A stretch of 20,345 bases of DNA. Origin: a virus. How positions within the stretch are numbered: the first letter of the stretch is position 1; every line of letters starts with the position of its first letter. The stretch lies in IMG/VR virus record IMGVR_UViG_3300037189_007487, positions 1 through 20,345 of that record, one strand, 5' to 3'. The position numbers were made by a program, and so were the translations under genes. Shown here in pieces: positions 5,090 through 18,947 of the stretch. The notes beneath the pieces were generated by a model, which was given only the letters and a program-made list of their open reading frames with translations, had not been told where the DNA came from and did no database searches.

Positions 5090-6547
5090 ATGAACATTCA
5101 GCAAGCCACTCTCAAAGTCCTGTCAATGGGTACAGGCAAAATCCTCGGTGCGTATAAATTCCATGTGGGAGAGGATCTGCCCACTGTCAATGCCAATGCC
5201 ACTTGTGCTAGGGCGTTAGCCCAAATGGTGATGGACGACAAAATATCTTTTGAGAATATTCAGTCCTGCCCTGTATTCATGCCGACTGCACCCGCCGCCG
5301 CTGTTGACAGCGTCAAGCTTGATGCTGTTGCCGCCGTGGCTAACCGCTCAGAGTCAATCGCACTTGAGGTGCGTGGCATGGTCAATGACGCTGTACGTGC
5401 CGCCGCTCATGCCGTCACCATGTCGGACAACTCAATCAATAGAGTTAAGACCGCCATCGATGAGATGAACGAACGCATTGAATCATTCGTTCAAAAGCCT
5501 GTGACAATTGATACCAGTACTGTGCAAGCGGCAGTGGCTAGTACTATCGCAAAAGAATTCGATGCGTTTAAACGTATCGTGGCTGACGCACACGCTGAGT
5601 CAATCGTGGCTGATGCCGCCGCCGTCCACATTGTGGATCGCCGCTCTGCCTTGGACGTATTCGGCATCGATATACGTGAACGCAATGGCGATCCAGTGAT
5701 GGTTGACATCTTTAATCACCCTGCCGCACCGTCCATCGATAAGCACTGGGTATGGTCAGAAAAGATCTTACGTGCGATCCTTGGGGTGCAGGGTACGCAT
5801 GACAACCTGTTCTTTGGCGGTGCTAAGGGTACAGGCAAGTCTCAAACCGCCGAACAATTTGCCGCATTCACCGGACGCAATTACGTGCGTTTCCAATTCA
5901 CCAAATACACCACTGCAATGGATTTTATGGGCGGCAAAGGTATGTCTAAGGGTGACACCGTGTTTGAAAAGGGTGCAGTGCTTGCAGGACTGACAACCCC
6001 TAGCACCGTGGTGCTGTTGGACGAAATCAGTATGACTGATGCGGGTGAGTTGGCTATCCTTAACGGTTTTCTTGAGCCTAACCCTGTGATCAGCTATGGC
6101 GGTGAGGTTCACCGCCGTGCAAACGGTGTCGTGGTGTTCGGTGCTGATAACACCCTGACATCTGGCGATGAGTCCGGTCTGTATGGCGGCACTCGCCGTT
6201 TAAACACTGCCACTGCCGAACGCTTTGCGTCAGTGATTAAGTTTGAACACATGACACCCGCAATGGAGATCGACATTGTGTGCCGCCGCACTGGTTGCAG
6301 TAAGCAGTTAGCTACCCATGTGGTCAAAGCACTGAATGCATTCAGAGCCAAGGTTGATTCGGGCGACATCATCGATGCACCGTCCATTCGCCAAACCATG
6401 TACTTCATCAAGAATCTGCGACTGATGACCGTTGATGACGCATGGGCGGCGGCAATCGGTAACCGTCAACCGTCAGAGTCAGCCATCGCCGTGCAAGCAA
6501 TCAAGACCGCTTGCATCAATGCCGAATTCATCGAAAAGAATCTGTAA
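5090..6547 (+). CDS. MoxR/CobS-type AAA+ ATPase
   Basis: 485 residues. The first 190 or so are mainly helical with likely coiled-coil (SINRVKTAIDEMNERIESF). The AAA+ core begins near residue 215: Walker A GGAKGTGKS at 243-251, Walker B VVLLDEIS with D311-E312, a sensor-1-like GADNTLT, and an arginine-finger candidate in TRRLNTATAERFASV. This is the AAA_5 pattern of MoxR and CobS. Such ATPases form hexameric rings that remodel partners holding a VWA domain; the next gene encodes one. Homologues in phages are often labelled cobaltochelatase CobS, but no cobalamin gene is nearby, so a chaperone role is more likely. A GTTTAAAC lies in the core at 6198-6205 and another at 5566-5573. Ribosome site AAAGGAAAA. 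Confidence 0.9.
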   Translation: MNIQQATLKVLSMGTGKILGAYKFHVGEDLPTVNANATCARALAQMVMDDKISFENIQSCPVFMPTAPAAAVDSVKLDAVAAVANRSESIALEVRGMVNDAVRAAAHAVTMSDNSINRVKTAIDEMNERIESFVQKPVTIDTSTVQAAVASTIAKEFDAFKRIVADAHAESIVADAAAVHIVDRRSALDVFGIDIRERNGDPVMVDIFNHPAAPSIDKHWVWSEKILRAILGVQGTHDNLFFGGAKGTGKSQTAEQFAAFTGRNYVRFQFTKYTTAMDFMGGKGMSKGDTVFEKGAVLAGLTTPSTVVLLDEISMTDAGELAILNGFLEPNPVISYGGEVHRRANGVVVFGADNTLTSGDESGLYGGTRRLNTATAERFASVIKFEHMTPAMEIDIVCRRTGCSKQLATHVVKALNAFRAKVDSGDIIDAPSIRQTMYFIKNLRLMTVDDAWAAAIGNRQPSESAIAVQAIKTACINAEFIEKNL

Positions 6548-6560
6548 TCAGTCAACCAGT

Positions 6561-6594
6561 GTGCTAGTAATAGCGTTATACTATCCACTAGCAC
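6561..6594 (+). promoter_or_regulatory. Promoter with flanking inverted repeat before the VWA gene
   Basis: GTGCTAGT (6561-6568) and ACTAGCAC (6587-6594) form a perfect 8-bp inverted repeat with 18 bases between. In the middle is GCGTTATACT with -10 TATACT (6577-6582). ACTAGCAC and CGTTATA are shared with copy B at 4438-4455. The dyad around a -10 looks like an operator. No good -35 was found. Confidence 0.5.
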
Positions 6595-6616
6595 TATCAA
6601 ACAAGGGAGAATCAAA

Positions 6617-8203
6617 ATGAAAAATACAATGCGTGGTTGGGAATTCCGCAAGGGTGTCGAGGATGCCGCCCACAAAATCACAAGCGCACTCAAGTTGCGT
6701 CCCATCACTATTCGTTGGGGCAATATCCCGACAGCGTGTATCGATGGCAAAGGTCGCATGGTGCTGTCCGACATCGCTGATGATGCCGTGGTCACTAAGC
6801 AGTTGTTTATGCGCTACATGGGTTTCATTGTGCATGAGTTGTTGCACCGCAAATACACCACTGATGGTTTGACTTACAGCAACCACTTTGTGCGTATGCT
6901 TTGGAATGGTTTAGAGGATGCCCGAATCGAAAACACTGCCATTGCCGCCGGTCTGACAGGCAACATCGGTGAGTTGTTGACAGTGCTGATCGACACTATG
7001 GTGTCGGAGGGTTTAGAGCAAGTATCCGATTGGTCTAACCCCGCTCAATTGCCCTTTGTCATTGCAGTATTTTGCCGTGACCATGCCACACGCAAAGTCC
7101 CTGTTCACCCTACCGTCCTGCCAATATTCGAGCAGGCACGTACACGTTTAAACACTTGCACCGACTCCGCTCAGGTGCGTGACCTTGCACAATGGGTGTA
7201 TGACCAGATTGAAAAAGCTGTCGAGGAACAACCGCCAGAGGGCGACACCCCTGATCCAGAGGGTAAACCTACCAAAGGATCAGGTGACGGCGATGCTGAC
7301 GCTGACGGTGAGAGTGCCGATGCCGATGCCGATGGCAAAGGTGCGGCTGACTATGGTGATACAGGCGGCAAGCCTATGTCAAAGCCTGTGCCTAATGATG
7401 CTGTATGCCCTGAGCCTACATTGGATCGTGAAGAGGGTATCGGCGGCGGTGTCAGTTGGTCACCTGATCGCACAATGGCAAAGCCCCTGTCGCACGTACG
7501 TGACTTAGAGGAATCTGCCGCATGGGATCTCAAGCCTGTCGGCGGTGCTAAGTTGCGTTATGAGGTTCGCCGCCTGTTTGAAATGTCAGGCATTGATGAG
7601 TACCAATTCAACCGCCGTCATGGTCAGCTTGATGTCGGAAATTTGCATACCGTTGCCGCAGGTAATGATCGTGTGTTTAAACGTCATCACGAAGAGGGCG
7701 GCATCGATTCCGCCGTGGTGTTTGTGATGGACTGCTCAGGTTCAATGTTCAATGAGAATATGAGAGCCGCCGCACCTGTCATGGCAACCATGATGGAAAC
7801 GTTAGACCGTGCGGGTGTTGCAACCAGTGTCGTGACGTTCGGCACAAAGGTGTCAATGCTCAAGCCTTGGAACATGACTGTCGCAAAGGCTATGCCGCTG
7901 ATCGCACGTATGCGCTCAGGTGCTGACAACTCTGACAGTCAAGCCTTGCGTTATGCGCATAGCCTGTTGCTGAACCGTCCAGAACAGCGCAAGGTTGTGT
8001 TTATCCTTGCTGATGGCGGTGTTGAGTATGACGATCAGAAACGTTGCATGGAGCAAGCTAAGTCCGGCGAACGCTTAGGCATCACAACCATCGGGGTTGG
8101 TATCCACGCTGACCTGTCACGTATGTATCCCAACAACATCATCATTAAGAATCTGGATGAGTTGGCGGGTGCATCTTTCAAGCAAATCAAAATGGCGGCA
8201 TAA
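6617..8203 (+). CDS. CobT-like protein: HExxH domain plus VWA (MIDAS) domain
   Basis: 528 residues, starting after AAGGGAGAATC. The N-terminal domain has a zinc-metallopeptidase-like motif HELLH at 73-77 followed by NGLEDARIE (97-105), whose Glu residues could supply the third ligand. A very acidic linker of Asp-Ala-Asp and Gly repeats lies at about 205-255. The C-terminal VWA domain begins near 365, with MIDAS DCSGS at 372-376 (D372, S374, S376) and a later ILADGGVEYDD. This is the usual partner architecture for MoxR/CobS ATPases. In such pairs the VWA protein binds a metal-dependent client and the ATPase remodels it. Whether the HExxH site cuts protein is not known. Calling it CobT in cobalamin synthesis would be unsupported here. 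Confidence 0.88.
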   Translation: MKNTMRGWEFRKGVEDAAHKITSALKLRPITIRWGNIPTACIDGKGRMVLSDIADDAVVTKQLFMRYMGFIVHELLHRKYTTDGLTYSNHFVRMLWNGLEDARIENTAIAAGLTGNIGELLTVLIDTMVSEGLEQVSDWSNPAQLPFVIAVFCRDHATRKVPVHPTVLPIFEQARTRLNTCTDSAQVRDLAQWVYDQIEKAVEEQPPEGDTPDPEGKPTKGSGDGDADADGESADADADGKGAADYGDTGGKPMSKPVPNDAVCPEPTLDREEGIGGGVSWSPDRTMAKPLSHVRDLEESAAWDLKPVGGAKLRYEVRRLFEMSGIDEYQFNRRHGQLDVGNLHTVAAGNDRVFKRHHEEGGIDSAVVFVMDCSGSMFNENMRAAAPVMATMMETLDRAGVATSVVTFGTKVSMLKPWNMTVAKAMPLIARMRSGADNSDSQALRYAHSLLLNRPEQRKVVFILADGGVEYDDQKRCMEQAKSGERLGITTIGVGIHADLSRMYPNNIIIKNLDELAGASFKQIKMAA

Positions 8204-10076: not shown

Positions 10077-11762
10077 CTAGAACTGATCCAGATTTTCCTC
10101 ATACGTTCCGCTGATTTTGTTGTACAGCAGGGACGTTTCACCTTGTGTGCCTACCCATCTATAGCGGCACTTCCATACGGCGATTTCAACGCAACCCTCA
10201 CCACGGTGAACGGTGATACCGCAATCGGTCTTAGCCCACCAAGCCATCGAACCTGAGATGGACATACCGTCCGGTCTTGGTTGATCTACGCCTGATCGAT
10301 TGATCTTTGATGGGTGCGCTACGAACCATGTATGGATAGCGTGTTGCTTACAGAACTTCTGAACCCTTGTCAGCATATTGCTGATGGCTTCTGTCTCTGT
10401 CTGGCTAGACTTATTCATCTCAATGTAGTTGTAGGGATCGATGACCAATCCCTTTACACCAAGCTTGGTGACTGCTGTTGCCGCACGATCCAGAATTGAA
10501 TCCAATGTTGACGGCTCATCGCCGTTTGTTTCAATGAACACAAAATGATCCTGCACCCATTTAAACGCTTCATCGCGTTCGCTGGTTGTCATGCGTTCTT
10601 TGCCGTCGAAGAATCTTTTCTTTGTGTAAATCTCCATCAGTCGGCTGATGTGGATCTCCGGTTGATTCTCAAACGAGCAGATGGCAAACTTCCAATCCTC
10701 ATTGCGTCCGAGATTGACCATCAACTGATCGACGAAGTTAGATTTGCCTGAGCTTGGGTAACCAGTGACAACTGTAAGCTGTGAAGGTGCAACCGTGTAA
10801 ATCTGATCCACCGAGTCGTAGCCCGTACTGCAACCCTTTCCCGTTCCGGCTGCGTAGAGATTGTTTAAACGGTCGTTGAACTGCGCTGCTCGCAAAAGTC
10901 CGGTGATCGGATATGGCTCGGCTGCGTCAATAATTTTCTTCAGTATGTTAGCGGGGCGATCATCAAGTGTCGGGTCATCATCTGTTAAGACCTCGTTGAA
11001 ATCTTTCTTTGAAAACTTGGCAAGTCTGCACTTGTCTTTACCTATCCTGCGAGCCAACTCTTCGGCTAAGACCTGACCTGCTTGGTCTTGATCTGTCGCT
11101 ATGACAATGTAGGGAGCTTTATCGATGACCGTTCTTGCGTTCTGTATAAACGCAAAACGCTTCTCATCGCCTTTGGCTTCGGTTAGCTTCTGCGGCGCAC
11201 CTGAAGGTACAGACACTACATTGTTTAAACCCGCCTCAACGGCGGATAAGACATCCATCTCGCCTTCGACAATGATGATTGGCTCACCGTTCTTTATGTT
11301 GTCGATGTTGAAGAAGTCGTGCGCTCCTCCCATATCTTGGGTGAAGTCTTTGCCCTCAATGGATCTGTACTTGGTGGCAACCAACACACCGCCACGGTAG
11401 TAGGGAAATGCAATGGCTTGGGTTACCTTACCGATCTTGTGAAAAAACTTCTCTGCTGATGTCAGCCCGAGCTTATCGGCTGTGACTTTGGATATTCCTC
11501 GGCTTTCTAACCAGTCATAGTGCGTATTAGTTAGATGGGCGGTGGGTTTGATTGCTTGGACAACTGACAATTTGATTTCCTTTCGTGGTTGAACTACACC
11601 GTTCTCAAAGCAATGGTGGCAGTGGTAGATTACCGCCCCATCATCTTTGCGAGTCAGCGTCATATCTTTTAGATTTTGTTTTTTTCTTTCGGGCGTGCAG
11701 TAAGGACAGATCACCCGCGCACTACTTCCAAAGTGCGTTTGCGCTACCAGCTCGGCAATCAT
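10077..11762 (-). CDS. Bifunctional DNA primase-helicase (T7 gp4/Twinkle type)
   Basis: 561 residues, close to T7 gp4 (566). Domains in order: zinc ribbon C19-x2-C22 and C48-x2-C51 for template recognition; TOPRIM primase core with EGEMD at 166-170 and DQDQ at 224-227; then a RecA-like DnaB-family helicase with Walker A GYPSSGKS at 334-341 and a Walker B-type GLVIDPYNYIE. It makes RNA primers and unwinds DNA at the fork as a ring. The ATG overlaps the stop of the upstream HNH-like gene (ATGA). It is the last and largest gene of the leftward operon and ends at the shared terminator. With no DNA polymerase in view, it must work with one encoded outside the window or with the host's. GTTTAAAC lies inside at 10863 and 11223. 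Confidence 0.95.
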   Translation of the reverse strand: MIAELVAQTHFGSSARVICPYCTPERKKQNLKDMTLTRKDDGAVIYHCHHCFENGVVQPRKEIKLSVVQAIKPTAHLTNTHYDWLESRGISKVTADKLGLTSAEKFFHKIGKVTQAIAFPYYRGGVLVATKYRSIEGKDFTQDMGGAHDFFNIDNIKNGEPIIIVEGEMDVLSAVEAGLNNVVSVPSGAPQKLTEAKGDEKRFAFIQNARTVIDKAPYIVIATDQDQAGQVLAEELARRIGKDKCRLAKFSKKDFNEVLTDDDPTLDDRPANILKKIIDAAEPYPITGLLRAAQFNDRLNNLYAAGTGKGCSTGYDSVDQIYTVAPSQLTVVTGYPSSGKSNFVDQLMVNLGRNEDWKFAICSFENQPEIHISRLMEIYTKKRFFDGKERMTTSERDEAFKWVQDHFVFIETNGDEPSTLDSILDRAATAVTKLGVKGLVIDPYNYIEMNKSSQTETEAISNMLTRVQKFCKQHAIHTWFVAHPSKINRSGVDQPRPDGMSISGSMAWWAKTDCGITVHRGEGCVEIAVWKCRYRWVGTQGETSLLYNKISGTYEENLDQF

Positions 11763-11998
11763 TTCATGCTGCCATCAGAATTGCGTTTAAATGAACGGTT
11801 CTTGCTGGGCGATTGCAGTTTGATGCCAGTAGCGTTTGACCCTCCCTTGCTTAAAGCTTTAACGTGCGCAACGTCTTTGCCTTTTCGGTCTACGCCTTTT
11901 GCGTCAAGCTTGCGTCTGGCTCGTTGACGTTCCATGCGGTTCTCATGTTCACCACGATCAACCTGCGTTTTGTATTCTTGTTTATAGTTGCGAGTCAT
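11759..11998 (-). CDS. Small HNH-like protein, 79 aa
   Basis: The start is the ATG at 11998 with AAGGAG eight bases upstream; a TTG seven codons earlier has no ribosome site. The N-terminal half is a charged helix (EHENRMERQRARRKLDA). The C-terminal half, GKDVAHVKALSKGGSNATG then SPSKNRSF, has the D-x2-H45 then N55 then N67 spacing of an HNH (beta-beta-alpha metal) fold without a zinc-binding CxxC. Phages often carry such small nucleases for packaging or DNA processing, but catalytic activity is inferred. It sits directly before the primase-helicase and is co-translated with it. Confidence 0.65.
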   Translation of the reverse strand: MTRNYKQEYKTQVDRGEHENRMERQRARRKLDAKGVDRKGKDVAHVKALSKGGSNATGIKLQSPSKNRSFKRNSDGSMK

Positions 11999-12167
11999 TC
12001 GCTTGTCTCCTTGCTTCAATCATTGCGTCTGCTTCAATGTAAGCAAGCTTGGCTCTTTGTTCTGGCCTTGCCTGCCCCGCATCAAAAACATCTCTTGAAT
12101 TCATCCCTGCCATTGCAAATGCGGCAAACAAATCCCGCATCGTCAAGTTGTTTAAATCTGTTTCCAT
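11982..12167 (-). CDS. Small conserved phage protein, 61 aa (paralogue of 19470-19670)
   Basis: ATG at 12167 with AAGGA five to six bases upstream; extending upstream would enter the previous coding end. The core, NLTMRDLFAAFAMAG then RAKLAYIEADAMIEARR, matches the MTLRDYFAAKAMQ then AKVAYMQADAMLKARE of the gene at 19470. This is a two-helix pattern I remember as very frequent in phages of proteobacteria, always of unknown function. Having one copy in the leftward replication operon and one in the rightward operon is unusual. It overlaps the next gene by 17 bases. Confidence 0.75.
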   Translation of the reverse strand: METDLNNLTMRDLFAAFAMAGMNSRDVFDAGQARPEQRAKLAYIEADAMIEARRQANDSQL

Positions 12168-12174
12168 GTTGTCC

Positions 12175-12654
12175 TTAAAGCTTTGTGAATTTAACCGCAC
12201 TCACTGGGCATGAGTAAATCGGCTGTGTGAAGTCTTTGTAACGTGAGTCCTTAACATTCTTGACAGTCCAGAGGTTTTTGGTGTCTCCCATGATGATTGC
12301 GGCATGAGTCATGTTCTTGTTAAGGATGATGTATGAGTGCGGCTTTGGCTTTGCGTTGTCATATGAATGCTGTGCGCAGACATATATTCCATCTTTAAAA
12401 GGATAATCTTGTGCGCAGGTAAAGTCAATGGAACGAACCTTGACTTCCATGCGTTGATGGAGAAATAAATCACCGTTGTCAATGTGATTCATTCGGTCTT
12501 CGTAAGATGATTGGACTACGACCATCGGCGGGACAGTGACGGTGTAGCCCTTATCGTTTAGCCATGCGGCAACTCTTTGAACGCCTGACTTGCTTTTCTC
12601 TACGTTGACCAGAATGTCCTGATGGTTCTGTTCGTTCTCTTGATCAGTCGGCAT
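12175..12654 (-). CDS. PD-(D/E)XK-like nuclease-fold protein, 159 aa
   Basis: The ATG at 12654 overlaps the upstream stop by 11 bases; upstream in-frame ATG codons lie within the other gene and are rejected. The segment NGDLFLHQRMEVKVRSIDF has the restriction-like core D62 followed by E70-x-K72 with beta-strand spacing. It is preceded by a helix (SGVQRVAAWLNDKGYTV) as in VRR or Holliday-resolvase-like folds. The C-terminal half has several His and Tyr residues (YVCAQHSYDNAKPKPHSY). It is likely a DNA-end or junction nuclease in the replication operon, but the family is not identified and the fold call rests on one motif. Confidence 0.55.
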   Translation of the reverse strand: MPTDQENEQNHQDILVNVEKSKSGVQRVAAWLNDKGYTVTVPPMVVVQSSYEDRMNHIDNGDLFLHQRMEVKVRSIDFTCAQDYPFKDGIYVCAQHSYDNAKPKPHSYIILNKNMTHAAIIMGDTKNLWTVKNVKDSRYKDFTQPIYSCPVSAVKFTKL

Positions 12655-12853
12655 TTCCAAAGTCCAATTTTGTTTGGTCGGGCGGGGCGACTGTTTCGAT
12701 TGACGTACCTTCTGCGAGGTGTTTAACCAAGTCTTCTTGTGATGCAACACGCACGGTTAATTCCTGCGATGCAACAAATGATAGTGCTTGTGAGCGATGG
12801 TTTGCTCTTACTAGCCTAACGCCACGGTTACTTGCGATTAGATAAATTCTCAT
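12644..12853 (-). CDS. Small conserved phage protein, 69 aa
   Basis: ATG at 12853 after AAAGGGAAAAC. The sequence MRIYLIASNRGVRLVRANHR, then ALSFVASQELTVRVASQEDLV, matches my memory of a short phage protein widespread in Burkholderiales phages (pattern RLVRA-N..QAL..VA...VRVASQ.DL). It is likely a compact alpha/beta domain with a disordered acidic tail. Function unknown. It overlaps both neighbours, showing a tightly coupled operon. Confidence 0.75.
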   Translation of the reverse strand: MRIYLIASNRGVRLVRANHRSQALSFVASQELTVRVASQEDLVKHLAEGTSIETVAPPDQTKLDFGNAD

Positions 12854-13064
12854 TGTTTTCCCTTTCAATTTGTTCTCTGATCATTTTTGTCAGCACCGCA
12901 AGCTGTGCGGCGCTCATTTGAAATACAGGTCTGCGGGAACCCCATAGATACCCCGCCGTGAAAATTTGTTTTGCTTGCTTCTTTGAGACGAAGTCGATGG
13001 GTTCATCGTCAGGATCACCTTCCCACCATTCCTCAAAAGCATCATCCATGTTTTTATCGCTCAT
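12828..13064 (-). CDS. Hypothetical acidic protein, 78 aa, first gene of the leftward replication operon
   Basis: ATG at 13064 after AGAGGA. It has an acidic start (DDAFEEWWEGDPDDEP), then KKQAKQIFTAGYLWGSRR, a pattern seen in many small phage proteins (F..W......A..AF.AG...), and a C-terminal helix (AAQLAVLTKMIREQIERENN). The upstream leader has a hairpin (13077-13090) one short step from the ribosome site and, further up, the proposed RNA switch, so expression of this operon is probably controlled in the leader. Function unknown. Confidence 0.75.
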   Translation of the reverse strand: MSDKNMDDAFEEWWEGDPDDEPIDFVSKKQAKQIFTAGYLWGSRRPVFQMSAAQLAVLTKMIREQIERENNENLSNRK

Positions 13065-13096: not shown

Positions 13097-13173
13097 AATA
13101 ATTTCACCCCAAAGACCCCCCTACCCCAGACGGAGTAAGAGAGGAGGTTCACCCGCCTTTACGGCATCATCAT

Positions 13174-13189
13174 GCTGACGTTAGTCAGC
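13174..13189. promoter_or_regulatory. Small perfect hairpin in the leader region
   Basis: GCTGAC (13174-13179), loop GTTA, GTCAGC (13184-13189). There is no adjacent T-run. It lies between the RNA-switch terminator and the first gene of the leftward operon, so it would be in the read-through mRNA leader. Confidence 0.4.
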
Positions 13190-13496
13190 CCCTCGGCTTG
13201 ATGATTCGACCAGCCGCACGGATTATTCGGGAACTGCCCCCTAGACGTATGTCGTACCGTGTACCCTTTTCTTCCACGCAGTCAGGCTGAACTCTTGCTA
13301 TCGGATGGAGTCCGGTCAGAAGTGAAAGGGCAACAAAAAAGCCGTTAGAACTGACCCCGGTGAGAAACCAAATTGTCTTTTGGACATTTGACACCCCATG
13401 CGGGGTCGGGATCAGATCTAACGGCTTGCTTGCTGGGTTTCTCACATCCAACGGTGAGAACTCTATCATATTTTCTATACGTGTCAAGCGGGTCAT
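13185..13496 (-). CDS. Doubtful ORF overlying the RNA-switch region, 103 aa
   Basis: An open frame of 103 codons from ATG at 13496 spans the entire structured RNA region. The product (GFFVALSLLTGLHPIARVQP, GGSSRIIRAAGRIIKPRG) has no clear fold but faintly recalls the Ash/Icd-like frames that overlie immunity RNAs of P4-like elements; this is memory only. No good ribosome site is seen, and the frame starts upstream of the promoter proposed at 13460-13487. The RNA structure may be the real constraint and the frame a by-product, or the two may overlap as in P4. Confidence 0.25.
   Translation of the reverse strand: MTRLTRIENMIEFSPLDVRNPASKPLDLIPTPHGVSNVQKTIWFLTGVSSNGFFVALSLLTGLHPIARVQPDCVEEKGTRYDIRLGGSSRIIRAAGRIIKPRG
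13335..13453 (-). ncRNA. Leader RNA with two mutually exclusive stems and a terminator (immunity-RNA-like switch)
   Basis: Read leftward from a start near 13453. The RNA has GTGAGAAACC (13445-13436), AAGCCGTTAGA (13427-13417), GGTTTCTCAC (13369-13360) and TCTAACGGCTT (13349-13339) followed by a U-run (13340-13335). Arms one and three pair, arms two and four pair, and the pairs interleave, so they form a pseudoknot or exclude each other. The second pair plus GACCCC/GGGGTC (13409-13404 with 13357-13352) makes a long terminator hairpin. The alternative frees it and allows a local ACCCC-GCAT-GGGGT hairpin. Termination here would shut off the primase operon (13064 to 10077). The arrangement resembles the transcription-termination immunity of phage P4; that comparison is inference. 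Confidence 0.55.
13460..13487 (-). promoter_or_regulatory. Leftward sigma70-type promoter for the leader RNA
   Basis: On the minus strand a perfect TTGACA (13487-13482), then 16 bases, then TAGAGT (13465-13460). Predicted start near 13453. TTCTCACC just at the start region (13460-13453) can pair with the GTGAGAA of the first switch arm, adding a third possible pairing if transcription begins a few bases earlier or comes from upstream. Confidence 0.55.
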
Positions 13497-13524
13497 GTAA
13501 AGATTTTTAGATTTTCTTTACATG
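13494..13524. promoter_or_regulatory. AT-rich 10-bp palindrome, candidate operator or hairpin
   Basis: CATGTAAAGA (13494-13503) and TCTTTACATG (13515-13524) are perfect inverted repeats separated by 11 A/T-rich bases. It lies directly upstream of the -35 box of the leader promoter, where a dimeric regulator could bind. It would also form a hairpin at the 3' end of any RNA coming leftward from the promoter at 13838-13867. Confidence 0.5.
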
Positions 13525-13831
13525 AGGTGTCGGCTACTCGCTACGTCTGTGGCGAACCAACTTTGATCGGCACACATTGGTATTGGTTGAGGCGACTTCA
13601 ACCACAGCATCCGCTTTCACCAACAAGAGTATGGACTGTTTGCAGTTGCGACCTGCACAGAGCATCGGGATGAAGAGCTTGGGGTTGACTAGCTTGCAAG
13701 ACATCTTCCCTCAGAGGCCCACTGACCGACTTCATACCTGCCAATCCACACACTTGTAGGAACTGGCGCAGGGAGTTCCAGACCGAACTGTTACGTATGC
13801 GAGGAGCATGATCCAGTTACTGTGCGCCAGC
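13525..13831 (-). ncRNA. Candidate structured leftward RNA of unknown class
   Basis: No strong gene fits this stretch. Read leftward from about 13831 it has TGCGCCAG/CTGGCGCA arms (+ strand 13763-13770 and 13823-13830, perfect 8 bp), an alternative hairpin GGAACT/AGTTCC (13759-13764, 13774-13779) that uses the same bases, and GGTTGA/TCAACC (13585-13590, 13598-13603) extended by CTGTGG/CCACAG. It does not match 6S RNA, tmRNA or RNase P as I know them. The overlapping hairpins again suggest alternative folds. Confidence 0.35.
13534..13704 (-). CDS. Possible small Cys-containing ORF, 56 aa
   Basis: The frame opens at an ATG at 13704, just two codons after an in-frame stop, with AGGGA very close to the ATG. 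The product has MSCKLVNPKLFIPMLCAGRN, then KQSILLLVKADAVVEV, and a basic tail RSKLVRHRRSE, with four cysteines. The composition looks protein-like, but the region also has strong RNA pairing, and the ribosome-site spacing is too short. It may be a small gene or chance. No homologue is recognised. Confidence 0.25.
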   Translation of the reverse strand: MSCKLVNPKLFIPMLCAGRNCKQSILLLVKADAVVEVASTNTNVCRSKLVRHRRSE

Positions 13832-17937: not shown

Positions 17938-18462
17938 CAGGCCCGGCTGGTTAAGGCTGCGTCAGGATTGGTTGGGCGTGGCAGGCGTGGCAAGGAGAGG
18001 TTAGGCAGGCTTGGAGGGTTCCGGCGTGGCGCGGTCAGACCCGGCCCGGTTGGGTAAGGCAAGGCAGGCTAGGCGCGGCGCGGTTCGTTGCGGTTTGGAT
18101 TGGTTTGGTATGGCAGGCTAGGCTCGGATTGGCACGGCGCGGTGCGGCAAGGATCGGCAGGGCAGGTTAGGTTTGGCAGGTCAGGGTCTGGATTGGAACA
18201 GTCAGGCACGGTAAGGCAGGCTAGGTGCGGCGAGGCTCGGCACGGTTTGGATTGGTGTGGCATGGCAGGCATGGAACGACTAGGACAGGCTTGGTGTGGA
18301 GAGGTTTGGCGCGGAAAGGCAGGCGAGGCGGGGTACGTCGCGGTGCGGTCAGGTGAGGCAGGTCGGGCATGGCAAGGCATGGCACGGTTGGGTTGGGAGC
18401 GGTCTGGCATAGCAGGCGAGGCATGGCGCGGAATGTTCAGGTTTGATACGGTAAGGCAGGCA
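17938..18462 (+). repeat. Degenerate pentanucleotide array, (GGNNN)n, about 525 bp
   Basis: The + strand is built from GG followed by three variable bases about a hundred times, for example GGCAA, GGATC, GGTTT, GGCGC, with occasional four-base GGCA units that shift the register. G is very common and C less so. No two stretches are long exact copies, so it is not ordinary slippage of one unit. Open frames through it (rich in Gly, Arg, Trp, Ala on one strand; Pro, Cys, His on the other) are artefacts of the period. It is bounded on both sides by GTTTAAAC (17925-17932 and 18465-18472). Confidence 0.9.
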
Positions 18463-18485
18463 TTGTTTAAACAAAAGGAGTTGAA

Positions 18486-18947
18486 ATGAACGCAGAAAAG
18501 AAGTTTTTAGAGAAATTAGCAAATCAAAATGGTGGCATCCTGATGGTTGATGATGTGATTGAGGCGGCAAAGGATAAGTCCTGCGTCCTTCACCATCATT
18601 TTGAATGGGATGACACTGAGGCGGCTAAGGCTTATCGTAAGGAACAAGCACGTAGCCTGATTCGTAAATGCAAGATTGTTCTGGTGGACATGCCATCTGC
18701 TGAGATTAGAGCTTTCACAAGCTTGCCGTCAGACCGTGAGAGCGGCGGCGGTTACAGATTGACATCTACAGTTTTGAATGATCAGCAGATGCGATTGGAA
18801 TTCATGCATGACATTGAATTGACAATTGCTAGATGGAAGTCAAAGCTTCATTTGCTTGACCCAAGAACGGCTGAGCTTTTACTTGATCTTGAGGAATCAA
18901 TTTCAAGCGGCAAGATTACTCAACAAAACGCCCAACAGGTGGCATAA
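18486..18947 (+). CDS. Conserved phage protein of unknown function, 153 aa
   Basis: AAAAGGAG lies five bases before the ATG and directly after the GTTTAAAC that closes the array. The first half has a recurrent phage pattern: GGILMVDDVIEAAKD, then CVLHHHFEWDDTEAAKAYR, then KEQARSLIRKCKIVLVD, likely a helix-turn-helix-like start and a conserved WDD loop. The C-terminal half is a helix bundle (EFMHDIELTIARWKSKLH, ELLLDLEESISSG). I remember relatives in phages, none with a known role. Confidence 0.75.
   Translation: MNAEKKFLEKLANQNGGILMVDDVIEAAKDKSCVLHHHFEWDDTEAAKAYRKEQARSLIRKCKIVLVDMPSAEIRAFTSLPSDRESGGGYRLTSTVLNDQQMRLEFMHDIELTIARWKSKLHLLDPRTAELLLDLEESISSGKITQQNAQQVA

Follow-up and report, generated by a model that had tools for sequence, protein, structure and literature searches.

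The minus strand of the window, as we call the whole 20,345-nt stretch analysed here (IMG/VR virus record IMGVR_UViG_3300037189_007487, positions 1 to 20,345), carries a promoter followed by approximately 350 nt of noncoding structured RNA, which is made up of a module A and, downstream of it, a module B. Sequence comparison indicates that conservation of both modules, with compensatory changes, extends to many environmental phage contigs, and it supports the promoter, both loop pairings and the long stem of module A, the fold of module B, the noncoding character of the stretch and its place before an operon. As to function, we give an about even chance to the reading that the RNA is a noncoding leader, which would control an early operon, usually one for replication, through conditional termination of transcription. 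The most interesting part of the leader is a short word within module B (R1) and its identical copy at the 3' edge of the RNA (R2), an identity that is left unexplained by conditional termination.

Part of this arrangement had been described in an initial annotation of the window, the sequence and coordinates of which are correct when read on the minus strand. The palindrome reported there is an exact, operator-like inverted repeat (arms 13493-13503 and 13515-13525, span 13493..13525, no strand assigned) with 100% complementarity; it adjoins the -35 box on its upstream side, and a similar inverted repeat was seen by eye in the aligned rows of the close relatives L004, L015, and L021. The perfect TTGACA (13487-13482) was likewise located at the reported position and forms, together with a 16-nt spacer and TAGAGT (13465-13460), a promoter with 10 of 12 matches (13460..13487, minus strand). 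Although a promoter scan of the window alone was not above chance (3 found, 2.6 expected), the place of this promoter is backed by the relatives, with at least 9 of 12 matches around the -10 box in 43 of 58 distinct loci, compared with 9.5% of shuffles. Transcription would start at approximately 13454.

Module A (13452-13335, minus strand) contains a hairpin, the loop of which pairs into a long terminator-like stem with a run of six U at its end (13340-13335). The first hairpin, P1 (13432..13452, minus strand), is formed by GTTGG/CCAGC, and the loop it encloses, GTGAGAAACC (13445-13436), serves as pairing element. Inside the long stem lies the partner of the loop, GGTTTCTCAC (13360..13369, minus strand), which is 100% complementary to it and forms a pseudoknot. 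The long stem itself (13331..13435, minus strand) has two inner hairpins between 29-nt arms (13407-13435 and 13331-13359) that are 83% complementary, and the linker 3' of the U run (13311..13334, minus strand) offers a second, competing partner of the P1 region. The interleaved arms and the U run of the initial annotation were thus recovered in full; its leader of about 120 nt was, however, too short, as conservation continues past the reported end of module A to approximately 13076, just 5' of the first ORF. A fold of the 126-nt leader had an energy of -56.3 kcal/mol (z -6.3), which was reached by 0 of 200 shuffles, and the 394-nt leader had a z of -5.2 relative to shuffles. With a stable stem directly before a U run, 3' of a promoter and 5' of genes, the stretch has the layout of an intrinsic terminator or attenuator.

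Further loci were found by conserved patterns or via one gene. The search with the primase-helicase gene returned 175 related stretches in viral contigs, the best 80 of which were analysed, and the region before the operon was conserved in most relatives reaching far enough. The G-rich stretch of module B was present in at least 119 viral stretches and in 4 genome contigs. Module B was identified in 171 of the 203 collected sequences, which include the window and contain some contigs twice under different locus ids, and module A was located upstream in 128 of those 171. A scan by the module B hairpin without the G-rich motif yielded at least 52 further distinct loci; among the 52 listed, the exact G-rich motif was present in 30, a relaxed form was parsed by script in 34, and in the other 18 the motif was recognised by eye.

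For the loop pairings of module A, near-identical rows were dropped, which left 59 distinct loci of the 128 with module A, and contiguous-helix scores were compared between each locus's own partner and the partners of other loci. The pairing of the P1 loop with the downstream stem strand scored 15.44 with the own partner and 11.19 with those of other loci (best of 10,000 permutations: 12.62), and the pairing of the P1 region with the linker after the U run scored 14.72 versus 12.55 (permutation maximum of 10,000: 13.89), whereas a control pairing in module A over the same 59 loci gave no signal (11.71 versus 11.74). The own partner ranked first in 12 of the 59 loci. These scores replaced an earlier duplex-energy test, which was blurred by internal loops (own -15.63 versus -14.07 for the best of 5000 permutations; own partner first in 6 of 59). 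In this comparison of relatives, a check that the initial annotation had proposed, both pairings of the loop exceeded all 10,000 permutations with a negative control, and with these competing pairings module A is a candidate switch with a predicted effect on termination. A third partner, TTCTCACC, which had been suggested at the start of the leader, is not conserved (1673 of 10,000 permutations were as good; 63 loci), and the signal for the suggested choice of GACCCC between a local and a distal partner was not separable from that of the main stem, being confounded by the P1 and P2 strands. Two tests confounded by these strands were left out, and a clean rerun of one was used instead; alignment A2, which misplaces the pseudoknot strands of module A, was excluded from the counts. 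The distance from the -10 box to the end of the U run was near-constant at 96-138 nt (58 distinct loci). A variant 5' module with the same layout, A', scored 24.88 for the loop with its own partner, compared with 15.59 for others and a permutation maximum of 17.57 (63 distinct loci).

Module B (13103..13310, minus strand), which was absent from the initial annotation, is a strongly conserved structured RNA of approximately 210 nt with two pseudoknots, the 3' end of which lies just before the primase operon. Its G-rich motif GGGGTAGGGGGGTCTTTGGG (13108..13127, minus strand) ends in two G that are the first two of R2. Covariation scans were performed with 65 rows for module B and 36 rows for B'', a second 3' domain described below, after removal of rows that were above the set similarity, incomplete, or longer than 290 nt. 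In the structure-free scan of module B (65 distinct sequences) canonical helices came out on top, including those of the two pseudoknots. In 35 sequences the named structure had 98.4% of cells paired (shuffled: 86.2%), 20 pairs with changes on both sides (shuffled: 12.9), and a covariation score of 0.408 (shuffled: 0.189; versions slid by 1-3 columns: at most 0.100), while further pair types were not above the shuffles (37 versus 38.4). Helix 9, a CU-rich/G-rich hairpin, varies on one side only. Taken by its pattern of covariation, module B is a real RNA fold. An insert of about 140-190 nt between profile positions ~60 and 62 was seen in L022, L035, L072, L148, L164, and others. In three loci with the G-rich 3' motif (L134 at 7169, L206 at 3457, and L208 at 4084) the match to module B is confined to its final 40-55 nt; their upstream parts seem structured but different, and no R1 was found in them.

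The 3' part of the leader is interchangeable. Among the 32 collected sequences without module B, 14 have module A on the plus strand of the locus, and another domain follows it in 13. In L002, L057, and L060 this domain is the Betaproteobacteria-1 RNA (RF02932; 84.6-100.1 at a cut-off of 49.4), which is therefore part of the same modular leader, and the domain in L059, L061, and L071 resembles it by eye; module B of the window was not matched by this model at the cut-off of 49.4 bits. Seven loci (L076, L026, L069, L048, L049, L010, and L027) have B'' as 3' domain, another RNA, which was without Rfam match in the scanned L076, L010, and L027. A conserved string of B'' was present in at least 120 viral stretches, many with A' as the 5' module. 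In L040 (5672-5783) an ORF directly follows module A with no 3' RNA domain, which makes this locus a natural test case for module A alone. Of 399 genomes from the order to which the L207 bin belongs, 5 had Betaproteobacteria-1 above the cut-off. In the loci scanned, A, A', B, and B'', all of them frequent in phage contigs from the environment, had no match to a family of Rfam 15, and eight further loci searched against Rfam gave only an int-alpA RNA in L113 (4260-4332; RF02996, 36.6 bits, cut-off 35.8), located directly behind module B. GOLLD and ROOL, large structured RNAs that are partly phage-borne and of open function according to the accessible part of the source (PMC12286853), likewise had no Rfam match in the window or in the loci scanned. 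A blastn search with A, A', B, and B'' gave no match in cultured-phage records besides one metagenomic record, and homologs in annotated phages or plasmids were not found besides MW202545, an annotated phage record that is itself metagenomic and matches the A part. In this record, a row of five tRNA genes (L002, 8389-8870) immediately precedes module A.

The copies R1 (GGGTGAA, 13148..13154, minus strand), located immediately 5' of an ACC-containing strand, and R2 (GGGTGAA, 13103..13109, minus strand), the final conserved part of the RNA, behave as an identity-locked word. In the scan of module B the ranks 11, 15, and 20 were identities rather than base pairs (columns 173-175 equal columns 224-226), and the same identities appeared at ranks 5, 7, and 10 in the scan of B''. 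Among the matches listed for B'', a repeat of at least 7 nt was found at the expected place in 96 of 100 distinct pattern matches, the exceptions being L220, L241, and L268 without repeat (L268 ends near the match) and L319 with an unrelated 6-mer. Where the 3' edge CACCAA could be located in B'' loci, R1 and R2 agreed at each of the first 7 positions in 90 of 90; compared between loci, the variable ones among these 7 agree only at 0.44-0.56 (eighth position 0.90, lower beyond). R1 equals R2 in all 86 distinct B'' loci; on a tree built from the rest of the backbone the word has changed 20 times or more, with both copies always changing together (joint count 20, not 40). For module B they are equal in 151 of 163 loci, with 33 changes of R1, 31 of R2, and 34 counted jointly; in 4 of the 12 exceptions no R1 was found, and the other 8 differ within the five compared bases. 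The longest shared word in module B was 6.64 within a locus and 5.25 with others (permutation maximum 5.56; 126 loci). Judged by these counts the identity is real. Since R1 and R2 lie within approximately 80 nt, the joint changes may have come about through recombination that exchanged the entire stretch rather than through double mutations; this could explain that the copies change together but not that they need to match.

No strand of the transcript was found to be both complementary to the R word and covarying with it, the only covariation partner being the other copy. An exact reverse complement was present in 21 of 22 loci with the word AAAAGCA and in 0 with the other eight words; it was discounted because it is part of the linker TTGCTTTT, which is also seen with other words. 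This linker explains at least part of the more frequent occurrence of the reverse complement of R nearby (0.41 for the own word versus 0.21), and extra copies of R nearby were not in excess (0.41 for the own word, 0.36 for other words). That R2 is flanking target DNA to which R1 has adapted is disfavoured by L237 and L300, which share the next gene and have different words, each matched by its own R1; R2 is therefore part of the RNA and not of the next gene. In the phage copies of Betaproteobacteria-1 a similar repeat was seen by eye; in two bacterial copies, L416 and L422, any such repeat was weak at best.

The operon behind the leader (10077..13064, minus strand) consists of small ORFs and a primase-helicase (10077-11762) of the Toprim/DnaB type (phrog_239 primase/helicase type), which bears out the replication operon of the initial annotation. 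In 83 of the 88 loci with B'' and in 96 of the 127 with module B, an ORF with Shine-Dalgarno sequence and ATG begins no more than 120 nt from R2. Among the gene families represented in the neighbourhood are primase-helicase, replication initiation protein, primase, helicase, and RecE-like exonuclease. In L119, L167, L183, L200, and L202 the element stands beside apparent terminase genes (named by eye), so that it is not tied to one gene. It is almost certainly wrong to read the stretch as a protein-coding gene with incidental arms. A 103-aa ORF (13185-13496) is present and overlapping ORFs recur in relatives; its ATG is, however, upstream of the -35 box, it had no Pfam match, and the region has covariation of the RNA type. 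Compared with the overlapping ORF, 63 of 65 aligned rows had frameshifting indels, and on this ground the ORF is not a gene. Elsewhere in the window, positions 18069-18489 are a repetitive G-/C-skewed stretch with low-complexity ORFs on both strands between real genes, and at positions 5090-8203 a phrog_249-type ATPase is succeeded by a large co-oriented ORF (6617-8203), with which it may form a pair.

Under conditional termination, the P1 hairpin would fold first after transcription has begun, and its loop would pair with the strand inside the long stem as the stem closes before the U run. In this closed state RNA polymerase would terminate and leave an RNA of approximately 105-120 nt. In the open state termination would not occur, the P1 region would pair with the linker just past the U run, and module B would be transcribed and fold ahead of the genes. 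The linker pairing is made only once the U run has been passed; it is therefore unable to stop termination on its own and more likely locks the read-through form. Module B with R1 and R2 would most likely be a second step, for instance by holding a factor on the transcript or by adjusting how the genes are entered. The support for conditional termination at module A is anatomical; the action of the stem as a terminator, what would tip the balance, and what module B would do are points that we infer. U runs of only 4 nt, present in 14 of 58 loci, would be weak for an intrinsic terminator and count somewhat against termination, and the 31 of 127 B loci without a Shine-Dalgarno and ATG ORF start within 120 nt, together with the loci beside apparent terminase genes, count against this reading as well.

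The initial annotation had likened the leader to that of P4, the CI RNA of which, in the accessible text of PMC4825925, pairs with one site upstream and one site downstream of itself. Shared with P4 (PMC4825925, as far as accessible) are the leader of a replication operon, a short element complementary to two places in this leader, and, as proposed here, a termination decision. In the leader studied here, however, both supported partners lie downstream, and across 63 loci an upstream one showed no conservation; the element is also modular and of far greater size, and no sequence kinship was found. The leader, promoter, terminator-like stem, and covarying competing pairings of the P4-like design stood, and the upstream partner did not. 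Kinship with P4 and membership in the P4 group are not supported, the primase being of the phrog_239 primase/helicase type and the Rfam search (below) giving no relevant match, and a P4-like geometry is partly supported. If the leader nevertheless conferred immunity of the P4/C4 kind, the terminated A RNA would target newly made leader transcripts in trans as an antisense RNA and so shut the operon in phage-carrying cells. Such a role would fit the presence of a single loop for which two complementary leader sites are supported, similar to seqA and seqC of the CI RNA (PMC4825925, accessible part), and the operator-like palindrome adjoining the promoter; as the upstream site is not conserved, every pairing can be intramolecular, and the window had no Rfam match at the cut-off (two weak unrelated matches in the region at E ≤ 10; Rfam may hold no P4 CI model), we consider it unlikely. 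A terminator-bearing RNA is also known from the prophage Gifsy-1, where the terminator of IsrK gives a short RNA and a read-through transcript; IsrK differs in that its effect is exerted in trans, on how the long form is translated (PMC4825925, as far as accessible).

The reading that best explains the identity of R1 and R2 is pairing of RNA with DNA at R2, which we nonetheless hold to be rather improbable. In a replication role the RNA, either whole or as a cleavage product with R1 at its end, would pair with the template DNA at R2 and give an R-loop or primer. The identity provides exactly the complementarity to the template strand that is needed, the transcript has no partner strand of its own, a G-rich stretch adjoins R2 in module B, and the element lies ahead of replication genes. 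Seven base pairs alone are few, however, B'' is without the G-rich stretch, and some loci are away from replication genes; a replication origin was also sought by GC skew, and four contigs gave no signal and no consistent switch at the element. Such a role in replication is, on balance, quite improbable, and it is doubtful that the leaders form a superfamily working by identity rather than complementarity, in which the RNA or a cleaved part would pair via R1 with the template DNA at R2. The put RNA of HK022 is, like this leader, a structured RNA right behind an early phage promoter, and put antitermination lets distal terminators be read through in cis without phage proteins. A leader that binds the elongating RNA polymerase and carries it past later terminators would match the structured RNA directly behind the early promoter; put sites are far smaller than this leader, which differs from put also in having a downstream module and a terminator-like stem within the element, and we regard a function of this kind as improbable.

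Terminator-bearing leader RNAs are a familiar kind, and conditional termination would place the present one among them; the families A, A', B, and B'' and the rule that R1 equals R2 were not met with in the Rfam scans, the Betaproteobacteria-1 RNA being the sole part already in Rfam. A literature search, drawn mostly from freely accessible papers, yielded no description of these RNA families or of the rule in the texts covered. For Betaproteobacteria-1, an unexplained RNA of Rfam, the context is widened: it is one of the 3' domains that can be exchanged in a phage leader. We can name no counterpart for the rule, which is a sharp and testable constraint and would mean either pairing of RNA with DNA or copies of a freely drifting word that are both recognised by something drifting along. 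If the pairing with DNA were true, the leader would be an RNA recognising the end of its own gene, be it to provide a primer for replication, to keep an R-loop in place, or to flag where the operon begins.
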